Positions 6,704-43,498 of a stretch of DNA of 64,000 nucleotides are shown one piece after another (position 1 is the stretch's first letter; every line of letters starts with the position of its first letter). The notes under the pieces were generated by a model that was not told the origin of the DNA, made no database searches, and saw nothing but the letters and a program-made list of their open reading frames with translations. A program made the position numbers and the translations under genes. The stretch is from an uncultured Paraburkholderia sp. (GTDB taxonomy: Bacteria; Pseudomonadota; Gammaproteobacteria; Burkholderiales; Burkholderiaceae): NCBI GenBank assembly GCA_940746715.1, contig CALNWN010000003.1, positions 462,272-526,271 on the forward strand, in the 5' to 3' direction.

Positions 6704-7122
6704 CCGAACGATCTCCCGCTCAGTGCGCGCGAAAGATACGCGTTGAAGCCGTGGTCGAGATAGGCATTGAGCGGCAGGTCGTCGCTTAACATGGCGGCAT
6801 CGATATCGGCGAGTTCGGCCGTGCGCTGCTGATCTTCCCAGTACGCAATGCCGACAAGGCTCACGACGAGCGCGGCGAGCGGCCACGCGAGCGCGAAGCG
6901 GCGCTGTGGCCGCGGCGCCGCCAACAGGCCGGCGGGAACGCCGGCGAAGGCCGGCACGAACACCGGCGCGCTGACGGTTTCGGGCTTCTGGCGTGCAAGC
7001 GCGGCACGGCGGGCGGCGGCCAGCCGGTCGACGGCGACGGACGGAATGCCGGCCGCGTTTTCGTCGAGCGCGCGGCGCACCTGGCGGGCGAACTCGAGTT
7101 CTTTTGTTTCGAGGGAGCTCAT
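6700..7122 (-). CDS. DUF3619 family protein, putative anti-sigma partner
   Basis: A 140-residue protein with a helical N-terminus (TKELEFARQVRRALDENAAGI), one central membrane helix (FALAWPLAALVVSLVGIAYW), and a short acidic C-terminal part. The single-helix topology plus overlap with the upstream sigma gene (ATGA overlap at 7119-7122) and the downstream DUF3106 gene resembles genes for membrane-bound sigma regulators. The anti-sigma role is inference from context only. The ORF is intact. Confidence 0.83.
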   Translation of the reverse strand: MSSLETKELEFARQVRRALDENAAGIPSVAVDRLAAARRAALARQKPETVSAPVFVPAFAGVPAGLLAAPRPQRRFALAWPLAALVVSLVGIAYWEDQQRTAELADIDAAMLSDDLPLNAYLDHGFNAYLSRALSGRSFG

Positions 7123-7682
7123 AGCGTGATTCCTTTGGCCTTGAGCGCTTGCGCCAGCGTGTGCGTGGCCCGCGAGCAGTGCATCTTCACACTGCCCTCC
7201 GAGCAGCCCATTGCGGCGGCAGTCTCAGCGACATCCATATCTTCCCAATAACGCATGAGAAACGCCTCCCGTTGACGTGCCGGCAACTTTTGGATTTCGT
7301 CGTCGATTATTTGTAGGACCTGTTCGCGCTCGAGTTTGCGCTCATTGCTCTCGGCGCCTGCGGAGCCCTGCTCGAGCTCGAAGGTTTCGAGCGGGTCGAA
7401 CTCCTCGTCGTCGGCATTGCCGAGCGACGAGAACAGGCTCACCCAGGTATTGCGTACTTTGGCACGCCGGAAATAGTCGTGCGTCGCATTTTGCAGAATA
7501 CGCTGAAACAGCAGCGGAAGCTCGGCGGCGGGACGGTCGCCGTATTTTTCGGTGAGTTTGATCATCGCGTCCTGCACGATATCGAGCGAGGCGTCGTCGT
7601 CCCGCACGGCGTAGACCGTCTGCTTGAATGCGCGCCTTTCGACGCCCGCCAGAAAGTCGGCGAGTTCCTTGTCTGATGCCAT
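7119..7682 (-). CDS. RNA polymerase sigma factor, ECF type
   Basis: A 187-residue sigma-70 family protein. Region 2 is visible at about residues 12-75 (DIVQDAMIKLTEKYGD, LFQRILQNATHDYFRRAKVRN). A short acidic linker leads to region 4 (IQKLPARQREAFLMRYWEDMDVAETAAAMGCSEGSVKMH), which carries the -35-binding helix-turn-helix. I start at the ATG at 7682 (MASDKELADF), since the 25 residues upstream in the ORF track match nothing in sigma factors. It heads an overlapping cluster sigma-DUF3619-DUF3106-RDD. It diverges from ilvB across a 356-base spacer. Confidence 0.9.
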   Translation of the reverse strand: MASDKELADFLAGVERRAFKQTVYAVRDDDASLDIVQDAMIKLTEKYGDRPAAELPLLFQRILQNATHDYFRRAKVRNTWVSLFSSLGNADDEEFDPLETFELEQGSAGAESNERKLEREQVLQIIDDEIQKLPARQREAFLMRYWEDMDVAETAAAMGCSEGSVKMHCSRATHTLAQALKAKGITL

Positions 7683-7861
7683 CCGTTGGGGGTCGGCGCA
7701 GCGAGCGTGCGCGTAATCGCGGTCGAAAAATGTCGTAAAACTCGCGGATGCTAACAAATTTTTGCCTAACCAGGGGCAAAAGGTGGGCCGGACCGGGTCG
7801 TCGCGAGCCGGGGCGTCGGTCAGAAACGGCCCTTGCCGGCGGGCGTTCGGGCAATATTTGC

Positions 7862-7890
7862 TTGACCGCGCGGGCGTCTGACGCTATCAT
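7862..7890 (+). promoter_or_regulatory. Predicted sigma-70 promoter of ilvBHC
   Basis: TTGACC and TATCAT are separated by exactly 17 bases, a near-consensus vegetative promoter. Transcription would start near 7897, giving a leader of about 140 bases before ilvB. The rest of the 7683-8038 spacer holds no convincing gene. I saw no leader peptide rich in Ile, Val or Leu codons. Confidence 0.7.
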
Positions 7891-8038
7891 TATTAGTTCG
7901 CAACATAAGTGACTTGTCTCATTGAGGTGTGGCCCAAGAAGCTCACCTGTCAACTGGACGCGCCGCTTGAACCCGAGCCACAAGCCCGGCAGAGAGCACC
8001 CGATCAATTTTTTGCCGAAAATTCGAAAGGTGAATTGA

Positions 8039-9802
8039 ATGAATATGCCCAGCGCGGAATTCTCCACGTCGGATACCACTCCACACCACGAAGCTGACTC
8101 TATCGGCGCCACCGTGCTTATGAAGGCACTGGCCGACGAAGACGTCGAGTTCGTCTGGGGTTATCCCGGCGGCTCGGTACTCTACATTTACGACGAGCTG
8201 TACAAGCAGGACAAGTTCGAGCACATCCTCGTGCGCCACGAGCAGGCCGCGGTCCACGCAGCGGACGCCTACGCGCGTTCCACCGGCAAGGTCGGCGTGT
8301 GCCTCGTGACCTCCGGCCCCGGCGTTACCAATGCGGTGACCGGCATCGCCACCGCCTACATGGACTCGATCCCGATGGTCGTGATCAGCGGCCAGGTGCC
8401 GACTGCCGCGATCGGCCAGGACGCGTTCCAGGAGTGCGACACGGTCGGCATTACGCGCCCCTGCGTGAAGCACAACTTCCTCGTGAAGGACGTGCGCGAC
8501 CTCGCCGCCACCGTCAAGAAAGCGTTCTACATTGCTCGTACCGGCCGTCCCGGCCCGGTGCTGATCGACATTCCGAAAGACGTCTCGAAGGCGCCGTGCC
8601 AGTACGAGCCGATCAAAACCGTGTCGCTGCGCTCGTACAACCCGGTGACCAAGGGCCACTCCGGCCAGATCCGCAAGGCGGTGTCCTTGCTGCTGTCGGC
8701 AAAGCGCCCGTACATCTACACCGGCGGCGGCATCATTCTCGCGGACGCGTCGCGCGAGCTGAACCAGTTCGCCGATCTGCTCGGCTACCCGATCACGAAT
8801 ACGCTGATGGGTCTGGGCGGCTACCGCGCGAGCGACAAGAAATTTCTCGGCATGCTCGGCATGCACGGCACGTACGAAGCCAACATGGCGATGCAGCACT
8901 GCGACGTGCTGATCGCGATCGGCGCGCGTTTCGACGACCGCGTGATCGGCGACCCGTCGCACTTCGCGTCGCGTCCGCGCAAGATCATCCATATCGACAT
9001 CGATCCTTCTTCCATTTCGAAGCGCGTCAAGGTCGACATTCCGATTGTCGGCGACGTGAAGGAAGTGCTGAAGGAGCTGATCGAGCAGTTGCAGACGGCC
9101 GAGCATGGCCCGGACACCGCGGCGCTCGCCGACTGGTGGAAGGACATCGAGGCCTGGCGCGCGAAAGACTGCCTCAAGTTCGACCGCAAGAGCGACATCA
9201 TCAAGCCGCAGTACGTGGTGGAAAAGGCGTGGGAGCTGACCGACGGCAATGCGTTCGTCTGTTCCGACGTCGGCCAGCACCAGATGTGGGCCGCGCAGTT
9301 CTACAGATTCAACAAGCCGCGCCGCTGGATCAACTCGGGCGGCCTCGGCACCATGGGCTTCGGCCTGCCGGCGGCGATGGGCGTGAAGATGGCGCACCCG
9401 GACGACGACGTGCTCTGCATCACGGGCGAAGGCTCGATCCAGATGTGTATCCAGGAACTGTCGACCTGTAAGCAGTACGACACGCCTGTGAAGATCATCT
9501 CGCTCAATAACCGCTATCTGGGCATGGTGCGCCAGTGGCAGCAGATCGAATACAGCAAGCGCTATTCGCATTCGTACATGGATTCGCTGCCGGATTTCGT
9601 GAAGCTCGCCGAGGCGTACTGCCACGTGGGCATGCGTATCGAACGCACGGCCGACGTGGAGCCGGCGCTGAAGGAAGCGCTGCGCCTGAAAGATCGCACG
9701 GTGTTTCTCGACTTCCAGACCGACCCCACCGAAAACGTCTGGCCGATGGTCCAGGCCGGCAAGGGCATCACCGAGATGCTCATGGGTTCGGAAGATCTAT
9801 AA
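8039..9802 (+). CDS. ilvB: Acetolactate synthase large (catalytic) subunit
   Basis: ThDP- and FAD-dependent enzyme condensing two pyruvates (valine/leucine branch), or pyruvate with 2-oxobutyrate (isoleucine). The 587-residue length is standard. Visible: the N-terminal ThDP pyrimidine domain with GYPGGSVLYIYDEL and the catalytic Glu in VRHEQAAVHAADAYAR, the central FAD-binding domain with IGARFDDRVIGD, and the C-terminal diphosphate domain with GEGSIQMCIQELSTC ending in NNRYLGMVRQWQ. An AAAGG ribosome site precedes the ATG. It leads an operon-like ilvB-ilvH-ilvC array with an unusual hairpin before ilvH. The frame is intact. Confidence 0.96.
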   Translation: MNMPSAEFSTSDTTPHHEADSIGATVLMKALADEDVEFVWGYPGGSVLYIYDELYKQDKFEHILVRHEQAAVHAADAYARSTGKVGVCLVTSGPGVTNAVTGIATAYMDSIPMVVISGQVPTAAIGQDAFQECDTVGITRPCVKHNFLVKDVRDLAATVKKAFYIARTGRPGPVLIDIPKDVSKAPCQYEPIKTVSLRSYNPVTKGHSGQIRKAVSLLLSAKRPYIYTGGGIILADASRELNQFADLLGYPITNTLMGLGGYRASDKKFLGMLGMHGTYEANMAMQHCDVLIAIGARFDDRVIGDPSHFASRPRKIIHIDIDPSSISKRVKVDIPIVGDVKEVLKELIEQLQTAEHGPDTAALADWWKDIEAWRAKDCLKFDRKSDIIKPQYVVEKAWELTDGNAFVCSDVGQHQMWAAQFYRFNKPRRWINSGGLGTMGFGLPAAMGVKMAHPDDDVLCITGEGSIQMCIQELSTCKQYDTPVKIISLNNRYLGMVRQWQQIEYSKRYSHSYMDSLPDFVKLAEAYCHVGMRIERTADVEPALKEALRLKDRTVFLDFQTDPTENVWPMVQAGKGITEMLMGSEDL

Positions 9803-9814
9803 CGACGGCTGCTA

Positions 9815-9869
9815 GCGCCGCTTCGTCCGCCTGCGTCTTCAAAAAAGACGCAGGCGGACGAAGCGGCGC
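9815..9869 (+). repeat. Perfect 25-bp inverted repeat (hairpin) between ilvB and ilvH
   Basis: Two 25-base arms, 9815-9839 and 9845-9869, are exact reverse complements around the 5-base loop CAAAA; the left arm begins GCGCCGCTTCG. No U-run follows the stem (next bases are CGAACC), so it is not a standard rho-independent terminator. It begins 12 bases after the ilvB stop and ends about 45 bases before the ilvH start. It could be an mRNA processing or stability element that sets the ratio of the two subunits; that role is inferred. Confidence 0.95.
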
Positions 9870-9914
9870 CGAACCGTTCGCAGACATCGACACAACATCT
9901 GGAAGAAGCGAAAC

Positions 9915-10406
9915 ATGAGACACATTATTTCCGTCCTGCTGGAAAACGAACCGGGCGCGCTCTCACGCGTGGTGGGTCTCTTCTCCGCACGCGGCTACAA
10001 CATTGAAACCTTGACGGTGGCTTCGACCGAAGACCGTTCGCTGTCGCGCATGACCATCGTCTCCATTGGCTCGGACGACGTGATCGAACAGATCACGAAG
10101 CATCTGAACCGCCTGATCGAGGTGGTGAAAGTGGTCGACCTGACAGAGGGCGCCCACATCGAGCGCGAGCTGATGTTGATCAAGGTGAGGGCGGTCGGCA
10201 AGGAACGTGAGGAAATGAAGCGGATGTCGGATATTTTCCGCGGCCGCATCATCGACGTCACCGAAAAGACCTACACGATCGAACTGACGGGCGCGAGCGA
10301 CAAGCTCGACGCCTTCATCGAAGGGCTCGACGCCACTGCGATTCTCGAAACGGTCCGCACGGGCAGCTCGGGCATCGGCCGCGGCGAGCGCATTCTGAAG
10401 GTGTAA
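9915..10406 (+). CDS. ilvH: Acetolactate synthase small (regulatory) subunit
   Basis: The 163-residue regulatory subunit binds valine and activates the catalytic subunit. The N-terminal ACT domain is plain (MRHIISVLLENEPGALSRVV, GLFSARGYNIETLTV), followed by the C-terminal NikR-like domain (LMLIKVRAVGKEREEMKRMSD, ending near residue 163). Length and sequence are normal for IlvH/IlvN. A GGAAGAAG ribosome site lies just before the ATG. It sits between ilvB and ilvC. Confidence 0.95.
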   Translation: MRHIISVLLENEPGALSRVVGLFSARGYNIETLTVASTEDRSLSRMTIVSIGSDDVIEQITKHLNRLIEVVKVVDLTEGAHIERELMLIKVRAVGKEREEMKRMSDIFRGRIIDVTEKTYTIELTGASDKLDAFIEGLDATAILETVRTGSSGIGRGERILKV

Positions 10407-10490
10407 CGCGCGGCGTCCCGATCCGGGCCGGACGGGGCTCATTACCATCCGGCCTTGCAGCACAACATTCGCAGTATCGAATCTCTCTGA

Positions 10491-11534
<1,044 letters not shown>

Positions 11535-11592
11535 GAAGTCCGTTTTATCGCACGAAGCCGGCGCGGCGCACCGCCGCAGGCGTCGGTCATGC

Positions 11593-11631
11593 AAAAAGCC
11601 GCCCAAGGGTGCTGAACCCTGGGCGGCTTTT
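11593..11631 (+). terminator. Rho-independent terminator after ilvC
   Basis: AAAAGCCGCCCA(A)GGG pairs with CCCTGGGCGGCTTTT across the loop TGCTGAA, with one bulged A and a short T tail. It separates the ilv genes from psd-pssA. Confidence 0.85.
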
Positions 11632-11668
11632 GCTATCCTACGGTTTTACAAAAACACTGAAGCCATCC

Positions 11669-12307
11669 ATGAATTACCCACATCCGATCATCGCGCGAGA
11701 AGGCTGGCCGTTCATCGCCATCGCGGCCGTCGTTGCATTACTGGTTCACGCTTTCGCGGGGTTCGGCTTTGCTTGGATCTTCTGGCTGATCCTGATCTTC
11801 GTCGTGCAGTTTTTCCGCGATCCGGCGCGCCCTATCCCGACGCAGGCGAACGCCGTGCTGTGCCCGGCCGACGGCCGCATCGTCGCCGTGGAAACCGCGC
11901 ATGATCCGTATGCCAATCGTGAAGCGCTGAAAATCAGCGTGTTCATGAACGTATTCAACGTGCATTCGCAGCGCTCGCCGGTCGACGGCGCGATCTCCAA
12001 GGTCGAATATTTTCCGGGCGCCTATCTGAACGCGGCGGTGGACAAGGCCTCGCTCGAAAACGAGCGCAATGCGATCGTGATCGAAATGGCTGGCGGCCAG
12101 ACGGTCACGTCAGTGCAGATCGCCGGCCTGATCGCGCGGCGCATTCTTTGCTATGTGCGTGCAGGTGAGCCGCTTACGCGCGGTCAACGGTATGGCTTTA
12201 TCCGCTTCGGCTCGCGCGTCGAGGTGTATTTGCCGGTGGGCAGCCGTCCGCGTGTGTCGATCGGCGAGAAAGTGTCGGCGTCGTCCACGATCCTCGCTGA
12301 ACTCTGA
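11669..12307 (+). CDS. psd: Phosphatidylserine decarboxylase proenzyme
   Basis: Pyruvoyl-dependent membrane enzyme that makes phosphatidylethanolamine from phosphatidylserine. The 212-residue product is the short class. It has an N-terminal hydrophobic hairpin ([33 protein letters not shown]), the conserved [11 protein letters not shown] segment, and the self-cleavage Gly-Ser in [11 protein letters not shown] near residue 178. The ATG at 11669 follows the ilvC terminator; the longer ORF-track start would read through ilvC sequence. It is probably co-transcribed with pssA, 24 bases downstream. Confidence 0.93.
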
Positions 12308-12331
12308 AGCGGCACAAAGGAGGTTGTCCGA

Positions 12332-13201
12332 ATGGCCGCATTCAAACCGCGCCGACCGCGCAACAGTGGACCGCTGCCGCGTCCGTTCCGCCGCAACAAG
12401 CCGATCGTCGCGGAGTCGCCGGCCGTAGACAGCCGGCGCGCGCAGCGTCAGCAATTCCTGCGAAAGCGCGGCATTTATCTGCTGCCGAACGCCTTCACCA
12501 CGGTGGCGCTCTTCTGCGGCTTCTTTGCCGTCGTGCAGGCCATGAACGTGCGCTTCGAGGTCGCGGCCATCGCGATTTTCGTCGCCATGGTGCTCGACGG
12601 CATGGACGGTCGCGTGGCTCGCATGACGCACACGCAAAGCGCGTTCGGCGAGCAGTTTGACAGTCTCTCCGACATGGTGTCGTTCGGCGTTGCGCCGGCG
12701 CTCGTCATGTATGAGTGGATCCTGAAAGATCTCGGCCGCTGGGGCTGGCTCGCGGCTTTCGTCTACTGTTCGGGCGCGGCGCTGCGGCTCGCGCGTTTCA
12801 ATACGAACATCGGCGTGGTCGACAAGCGGTTCTTCCAGGGCATGCCGAGTCCGGCGGCCGCGGCGCTGATCGCAGGCTTCGTGTGGCTCGCCACCGACAA
12901 CCGCGTGCCGCTCAAGCTCGTCTGGCTGCCATGGGTCGCGTTTGTGCTGACCATCTACGCAGGCGTGACCATGGTGTCCAACGCGCCGTTTTACAGCGGC
13001 AAGGCGCTCGACGTGCGGCATCGCGTGCCGTTCGGCGTGATTCTGCTCGTGGTGGTCGCGTTCGTGCTGGTGTCGTCGGATCCGCCTTTGATGCTGTTCG
13101 GCCTGTTCGTGCTGTACGGCCTGTCCGGCTATGTGTTCTGGGGTTATCAGGCGCTGCGGGGCAGGGCGAATCCTGCTCGCTCGGTCGCGCACGACCGGTA
13201 G
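12332..13201 (+). CDS. pssA: CDP-diacylglycerol-serine O-phosphatidyltransferase
   Basis: Membrane enzyme forming phosphatidylserine, the substrate of Psd. The 289-residue protein starts with a basic ~45-residue tail. The CDP-alcohol phosphotransferase signature DG-x2-AR-x8-G-x3-D-x3-D follows, with the exact pattern DGMDGRVAR...FGEQFDSLSD near residues 89-114. Several membrane helices follow. A strong AAAGGAGG ribosome site lies nine bases before the ATG. The frame is intact. A terminator follows about 70 bases after the stop. Confidence 0.95.
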   Translation: MAAFKPRRPRNSGPLPRPFRRNKPIVAESPAVDSRRAQRQQFLRKRGIYLLPNAFTTVALFCGFFAVVQAMNVRFEVAAIAIFVAMVLDGMDGRVARMTHTQSAFGEQFDSLSDMVSFGVAPALVMYEWILKDLGRWGWLAAFVYCSGAALRLARFNTNIGVVDKRFFQGMPSPAAAALIAGFVWLATDNRVPLKLVWLPWVAFVLTIYAGVTMVSNAPFYSGKALDVRHRVPFGVILLVVVAFVLVSSDPPLMLFGLFVLYGLSGYVFWGYQALRGRANPARSVAHDR

Positions 13202-42440: not shown

Positions 42441-42484
42441 TACTCGCTAACCAGGTTGTCAAGTGACAACCTGGTTAGCGAGTA
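42441..42484. promoter_or_regulatory. 44-bp perfect palindrome, putative operator
   Basis: Two 21-base arms (42441-42461 and 42464-42484) are exact reverse complements around AG; the left arm begins TACTCGCTAACC. It ends 17 bases before the first codon of the toxin-antitoxin-like pair, overlapping where an autoregulator would bind. A TGGAGGACAG ribosome site follows it. The palindrome is intact although both genes are frameshifted. Confidence 0.9.
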
Positions 42485-42501
42485 CTACATTGGAGGACAG
42501 G

Positions 42502-42757
42502 ATGGTTCGTGGAGTCCACGCTAAGAAAGAGATTGAGGCCGCGTTGGCGTATGCCGAGCGGCGCGGGTGGCGCATACAAGGCGGAGGCAAGGGTCACGCG
42601 TGGGGAAAAATGTATTGCCCTTATAAAGACGCGGAGTGCCGTTGCGGAGAGTTCTGCATCTCAAGTGTATGGAGCACGCCTAAGAATGCTGTTAATCATG
42701 CCAGGCACTTGCGGCGTGGTCGACAACTGCACGGCGCACCGTTCGCACCGGCATTGA
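42502..42757 (+). pseudogene. Small toxin-like protein, frameshifted
   Basis: First gene of a two-gene unit. The intact part reads MVRGVHAKKEIEAALAYAERRGW..., then a Cys-rich MYCPYKDAECRCGEFC and SVWSTPKNAVNHARHLRR. After this the frame runs into sequence without family character and overlaps the next gene. In another frame VVDNCTAHRSHRH ends at 42757. A 2-base deletion near 42718 explains both and gives an 85-residue protein. I do not know its activity. Small size, partner with a DNA-binding domain, and the palindrome suggest a toxin-antitoxin module (inference). Confidence 0.65.
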
Positions 42758-42791
42758 GTTGTAAAGTCCTGGAATTGAGTAGGAGTAGCAC

Positions 42792-43314
42792 ATGGAATAT
42801 ACGTTCACGTTGAAGTACAAGCTTGCTGCGCAAGACGGCGATCTTGACGCGATTGTCGAGCGACTGGGCGAAGCGGGGTGTGACGACGCCACAATCGGCG
42901 TGGGTCAACCGGGGCGGCTCGCGCTGGTCTTTTCTCGAGAAGCGGCGTCCGCGTTCGAGGCGCTGGTCAGCGCGCCTTGCGACGTCAAGAATGCGGTGCC
43001 GTCGGCACGGCTTGTCGAAGCGGGCCCGGATTTCGTGTGCCTGACAGACGTGGCCGAGATTGCCGGCGTGTCACGGCAAAACATGCGCAAGCTTATGCTG
43101 AGTCATGCAGTTGAATTCCCGTCGCCGGTACACGAGGGAAGTGCGTCGGTGTGGCATTTGTCGGACGTGCTGGATTGGCTGGATTCCCGTTGGATACGAC
43201 ATCAAGCCAGACGTTTTCGATGTCGCGAAGTCGGCCAAGCAGATCAACCTCGCCAAAGAAGTGCGCGAGCTCGAGCCGCGGCTCAGCCGTCGACTCGAAT
43301 GCCTGGTCGCGTGA
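42792..43314 (+). pseudogene. HTH-domain antitoxin-like protein, frameshifted
   Basis: Second gene of the pair, starting 34 bases after the restored first stop, with a TAGGAG ribosome site. The N-terminus (MEYTFTLKYKLA, ERLGEAGCDDATIGVGQPGRL) is followed by a helix-turn-helix segment, LTDVAEIAGVSRQNMRKLML, near residues 78-97. After VLDWLDSR the annotated frame turns Arg/Pro-rich, while the frame one base on reads GYDIKPDVFDVAKSAKQINLAKEVRELE. A single inserted T near 43192 explains this. Restored length is 173 residues. It would be the autorepressor of the palindrome. Confidence 0.75.
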
Positions 43315-43498
43315 GCGCTCAACAGCGAACGGTGCTAGGGGCCCGATGGGCACCCCGTGAGTGCGCAGTTTTTCGGAAGCCCTAAGGTGGTAAGTCGCAC
43401 GTAAGTCGGGCTCGTCCGGTCATATGGCGTTCGGCAGGCGTTTGCGTAAAGCGTTAAAATCGCCCACCACGCATGATCTTCCGGCAGCGTCTTAATAC

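Follow-up and report, generated by a model that had tools for sequence, protein, structure and literature searches.

Two kinds of structured RNA are found between genes of one operon in settings that bear on the locus analysed here. Comamonas and other genera of a single other family of the order (f49, above the cut-off) carry the Rfam ilvH RNA (RF02993) between ilvB and ilvH. The ilvH motif was reportedly described in a study of candidate RNAs and, to our knowledge, RF02993 has no proven mechanism. At the 3' ends of upstream genes, stem-loops free of a U-run (SRPS) are enriched in operons encoding heteromeric complexes, and their stability correlates with the ratio of upstream to downstream transcript (PMC4423207). 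Moreover, in an E. coli reporter the upstream gene is expressed more strongly when the intercistronic stem-loop is more stable, provided that an RNase E site follows it (PMC10667835), and protective structures widely reshape the operons of this bacterium (PMC5927463). The stems themselves can be altered during replication, since quasipalindrome template switching in E. coli rewrites one arm as the complement of the other (PMC7202029), and template switching has been proposed as a process that both creates and maintains RNA stems (PMC8794818).

The locus lies in the window, that is, the whole 64-kb stretch of DNA analysed, and belongs to an assembly of 5.18 Mb that is 99.9% complete and small for its genus (range 4.1 to 11.5 Mb). 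On the forward strand, ilvB (8039-9802; acetolactate synthase large subunit, 587 aa; Pfam TPP_enzyme_N/M/C) is followed by ilvH (9915-10406; regulatory subunit of the same enzyme, 163 aa; Pfam ALS_ss_C and ACT_AHAS_ss) and then by ilvC as the next gene on the same strand (10518-11534; ketol-acid reductoisomerase; Pfam KARI_N/KARI_C), all three being open reading frames. The perfect 25-bp inverted repeat with a five-base loop that the initial annotation had described between ilvB and ilvH is indeed present, and Pfam identifies both genes. Its arms (9815-9839 and 9845-9869, 25 nt each) are 100% complementary and are separated by a 5-nt gap, the loop CAAAA (9840-9844), the stem starting 12 nt past the ilvB stop and ending 45 nt ahead of the ilvH start. 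Between the hairpin and ilvH, a conserved unpaired leader, ATCTGGAAGAAG (9897-9908), is recognized from the sequence and the spacer alignment and is weakly paired in the fold; it contains a weak Shine-Dalgarno-like GGAAGAAG for ilvH (9901-9908).

This repeat is the longest perfect one among the close pairs of the window, and the local RNA fold of its region reaches -62.8 kcal/mol (z = -8.5 against dinucleotide shuffles). About 1.5e-9 perfect 25-bp hairpins with a loop of 3-8 nt would be expected in 64 kb of the same composition, and a chance origin is rejected. Both BLAST and the covariance model place the hairpin once in its own genome, its reverse-strand match being the palindrome meeting itself, and this single copy refutes the mobile repeat that had been among the first proposals, along with any REP-type element. 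A G+C-rich hairpin past a stop codon resembles an intrinsic terminator. However, no U-run is present in the window or the orthologues, and the same strand continues with two further genes of the pathway. An intrinsic terminator is thus rejected, given that CGAACCGTTC, which follows the stem, has no U-run and that the hairpin is absent from the terminator scan, in agreement with the earlier remark that this is not a plain terminator. Elsewhere in the window, at 42441-42484, there is a second perfect inverted repeat (TACTCGCTAACCAGGTTGTCA/TGACAACCTGGTTAGCGAGTA; arms of 21 bp, 2 nt apart), and two ORFs come directly after it, a small one at 42502-42813 and another at 42792-43385. Both lack a Pfam match, and the layout and sequences of 42441-43385, judged by eye, would fit a candidate toxin-antitoxin-like two-gene unit with its operator.

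The ilvB-ilvH hairpin is almost certainly the local copy of a conserved RNA element of four genera. In Paraburkholderia, Caballeronia, Burkholderia and Trinickia, the ilvB-ilvH spacers measure about 95-160 nt (ilvH loci of 80 genomes plus genus searches), and each holds one long hairpin that is the same as that of the window but imperfect. Thus, the search of other genomes that the initial annotation had proposed found the stem in relatives, and not its absence from all of them. Orthologous stems comprise 19-27 bp in all, with interruptions, a bulged G and a 1x3 internal loop recurring at conserved places; because these bulges and internal loops break the stem, a scan for perfect stems misses the hairpin of the relatives, finding only 3-10 bp. 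The geometry is also similar, with usually 11-13 nt from the stop codon to the stem (median 13) and a median of 45 nt from the stem to the ATG. In five Paraburkholderia loci (L005, L095, L098, L102 and L106), an additional insert of 12-22 nt, with a small inverted repeat of its own, separates the main hairpin from the ilvB stop.

Folding of the orthologous 67-nt elements gave z below -2 in 51 of 60 (median -3.0), and in 18 of 30 loci fewer than 1% of the other 67-nt windows of the same locus were equally stable. By this control, the stability of the element is ordinary within one Trinickia locus (L029), and the folds of the weak members (Trinickia and some very G+C-rich Burkholderia) are not clearly better than their own shuffles. 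Of 200 genomes of the family, 48 contained a match to a covariance model of the element (R1), each at one place, a count that is a lower bound as strict Infernal filters were applied for many genomes; the matches fell in 4 of 25 genera, and the named loci belong to Paraburkholderia, Burkholderia, Caballeronia and Trinickia. With the loop as anchor, a gap-free alignment of 41 sequences spans 67 columns, and the loop reads C-A-N-R-A, with C32, A33, A36 and the apical pair G27-C41 invariant, while the stem varies freely.

The variation of the stem preserves pairing. In alignment A1, standard pairs occupy 88.8% of the pair cells, compared with 80.2% after shuffling, double-changed pair cells number 58 against 16.8, and covariation is 0.322 against 0.186, none of these values being reached by any of 500 shuffles. 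Controls in which the structure was slid along the alignment paired in 35-53% of cells and scored far lower both on cells paired and on covariation. The cross-genus alignment, which was fitted to the model and therefore leans towards it, gave 96 double-changed cells against 45.6 shuffled and a covariation of 0.418 against 0.209. Moreover, standard pairs are in strong excess over shuffles and A-C cells are depleted (24, with 43.6 expected), whereas G-U cells remain near expectation (94, with 103.6 expected). As G-U is tolerated far more than A-C, and G-U can pair only in the sense strand, the selected form is the RNA of the operon transcript; a DNA-level operator or a minus-strand RNA is rejected on the same depletion of A-C mismatches with hardly any of G-U.

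The perfection of the stem is a separate matter. The initial annotation had taken it as a sign of function or of a very recent origin, and both parts stand in a modified form: the element is old and conserved, and the perfect form arose recently and is confined to this genome. When 148 genomes of the genus are compared, a strong match between the spacer and the reverse strand of the same spacer is seen here alone, with a weak one in a further genome (G061). In the sister genome (G100, locus L084), identified from an ilvB plus ilvH tree and by identity (98.0% in ilvB, 97.6% in ilvH), the hairpin is imperfect, at -33 kcal/mol as compared with -56 kcal/mol in the window. The 5' arm, whose orthologous arm is imperfect in relatives, carries all of the private changes of the hairpin, which amount to one deletion and four substituted or inserted letters confined to a 13-nt tract (9820-9832; private among 48 aligned spacers). 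Relative to close relatives, one of two G has been lost between 9820 and 9821, and CGCCT stands at 9828-9832 where they have RYGC. Each of these changes creates a pair with 9852-9864, AGGCGGACGAAGC, the exact reverse complement of 9820-9832, every letter of which is also present in near relatives, and the 3' arm as a whole has no private letter. Just past the 3' arm, at 9870-9871, there is a GC-to-CG double change with respect to the nearest relatives, which copying of the opposite arm does not explain.

The stem very probably owes its perfection to a quasipalindrome template switch, a reading that rests on the pattern of these changes. During replication, the template would have been switched within a pre-existing imperfect palindrome, and the 3' arm, with AGGCGGACGAAGC as the putative template, would have been copied into the 5' arm, leaving a perfect stem. 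The direction of change is taken from the comparison with outgroups. The lineage has one sequenced member, in which the changes may have arisen in a single event. Such a singular observation, with a perfect stem in 1 of 148 genomes of the genus, could also come from an assembly or amplification artefact over an ordinary imperfect hairpin. Nevertheless, the hairpin has kept its overall length (25/5/25), only 13 nt are affected, and the pattern is that expected of replication template switching, so that an artefact is regarded as highly improbable.

As regards known RNA families, no Rfam family matches the element, either in the window or in the relatives that carry it. RF02993 has no match in 7000-13000 of the window up to E = 1, its best score in this genome being 19.4 bits at another place, with a gathering score of 55.1 bits, and conversely the hairpin model built here has no match in Comamonas. 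Sub-threshold matches of the Rfam families mir-1788 and P35 at 9803-9881, on both strands, were set aside, since any long perfect stem scores in this way and homology is not implied. The literature searched contained no report of a Burkholderia ilvB-ilvH RNA, and ilv is absent from the main text of the B. cenocepacia papers on small RNAs and transcription start sites. Two further observations concern Comamonas: besides RF02993, its spacer (L061, 2837-2996, and L081) contains what looks by eye like a separate hairpin near the stop codon, GAAGCTGCCAGCGCTTGCTGGTGGCTGATTTC; and the motif ATCTGGA ahead of ilvH is common to Comamonas and Paraburkholderia.

Genera outside the four arrange these genes differently. 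In Cupriavidus, Ralstonia, Massilia, Herbaspirillum and Duganella, ilvB and ilvH overlap or abut (-1 to 2 nt), and Pandoraea has a spacer of 87-90 nt with no match to the model. Since the two genes overlap or abut in most genera that lack the element, the hairpin accompanies the loss of direct coupling between them. The 110-nt untranslated gap, in a lineage whose related genera have overlapping genes, could suggest that the hairpin serves to mask the spacer from Rho or from nucleases, preventing polarity on ilvH and ilvC and leaving the subunit ratio unaffected. However, a shorter or absent spacer would serve equally well, and the conserved loop would be left unexplained; masking is thus considered improbable.

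An intra-operon punctuation hairpin that uncouples ilvB from ilvH is given about an even chance as the function of the element. In this mechanism, for which the SRPS stem-loops set a precedent, the hairpin would fold right behind the ribosomes that finish ilvB. Cleavage would follow, either by an endonuclease acting on the A-rich, unpaired leader downstream or by RNase III within the stem, and would leave the hairpin as a protective 3' end on the ilvB message. Visual inspection of the leader upstream of ilvH revealed no obvious RNase E consensus. The subunits of acetolactate synthase are usually needed in similar amounts, so that a strong need for an excess of ilvB is not expected a priori, which argues against punctuation. 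The near-invariant CANRA loop also suggests that something reads it, as a pure exonuclease barrier would not require conservation of the loop.

The main rival for the cutting step is RNase III. The stem would then be primarily a site for this enzyme, a double-strand cut separating ilvB from ilvH and the new downstream 5' end altering the decay or the translation of ilvH. The uninterrupted 25-bp duplex of the window would suit such a role, as would the 19-27 bp of the orthologues, near two helical turns. However, the orthologues retain their bulged G and 1x3 internal loop at conserved places, and the invariant loop goes beyond what the enzyme needs, a conserved loop not being required by RNase III; a stem that is primarily an RNase III site is therefore unlikely. 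The invariance of C32, A33, A36 and G27-C41 in the midst of a changing stem would be accommodated if a protein or small RNA binds the CANRA loop and makes the hairpin a regulated switch of ilvH (or of ilvB), comparable to the Rfam ilvH RNA, and the presence of RF02993, a different structured RNA, in the same spacer of another family of the order points the same way. Nevertheless, the ilvH ribosome-binding site lies outside the stem and shows no strong pairing with the hairpin in the fold, and such a switch seems slightly less likely still than a dedicated RNase III site. We know of no protein that binds a CANRA hairpin. The same uncovered ribosome-binding site, together with the lack of a U-run and the 45 nt that separate the stem from ilvH, weakens the initial idea of an attenuator of downstream expression.

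A broader and rather doubtful proposal would join several of these elements. The hairpin would represent a second, unrelated class of ilvB-ilvH RNA, whose CANRA loop, read by a putative factor, would set the subunit ratio of acetolactate synthase in the Burkholderia lineage; this spacer would have acquired different regulatory RNAs by convergence in different families of the order, and template switching would help to maintain the stem. Whatever its function, the hairpin is an intra-operon structured RNA with no Rfam family, and its oddity, the perfection of the stem, is explained by template switching, at the strength given above for that event. Four genera thus share a conserved RNA element, hitherto undescribed, at a core amino-acid operon, and the window genome supplies a clear natural example of a bacterial RNA stem made perfect by template switching. 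Moreover, the versions of -56 and -33 kcal/mol in the window genome and its sister, with ilvB 98% identical, offer a natural experiment on whether the stoichiometry of the subunits depends on the stability of the stem.

Compared with the described systems, the hairpin shares the place of RF02993 and not its family. Both are conserved structured RNAs in the ilvB-ilvH spacer, in the same order, once per genome and upstream of ilvH. However, RF02993 reaches to within 4 nt of the ilvH start (L061) and covers the ribosome-binding region, whereas the stem of the Burkholderia lineage ends 45 nt before it, and the two differ in loop and sequence. With regard to quasipalindrome mutations (PMC7202029, PMC8794818), the conversion of an imperfect repeat into a perfect one through clustered changes in one arm that match the other arm is the same. 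Unlike those cases, which concern a reporter, microRNA and rRNA, this one is a natural, bacterial, intra-operon RNA element, and the event is read from the pattern that it left. Finally, SRPS are characterized also by a mapped processing site and unequal transcript levels of the flanking genes, whereas the ilvB-ilvH hairpin is known here from its sequence; like the 3'-protective stem-loops of that class, it is stable, free of a U-run, located 3' of the upstream gene in an operon for a single complex, and conserved between species.
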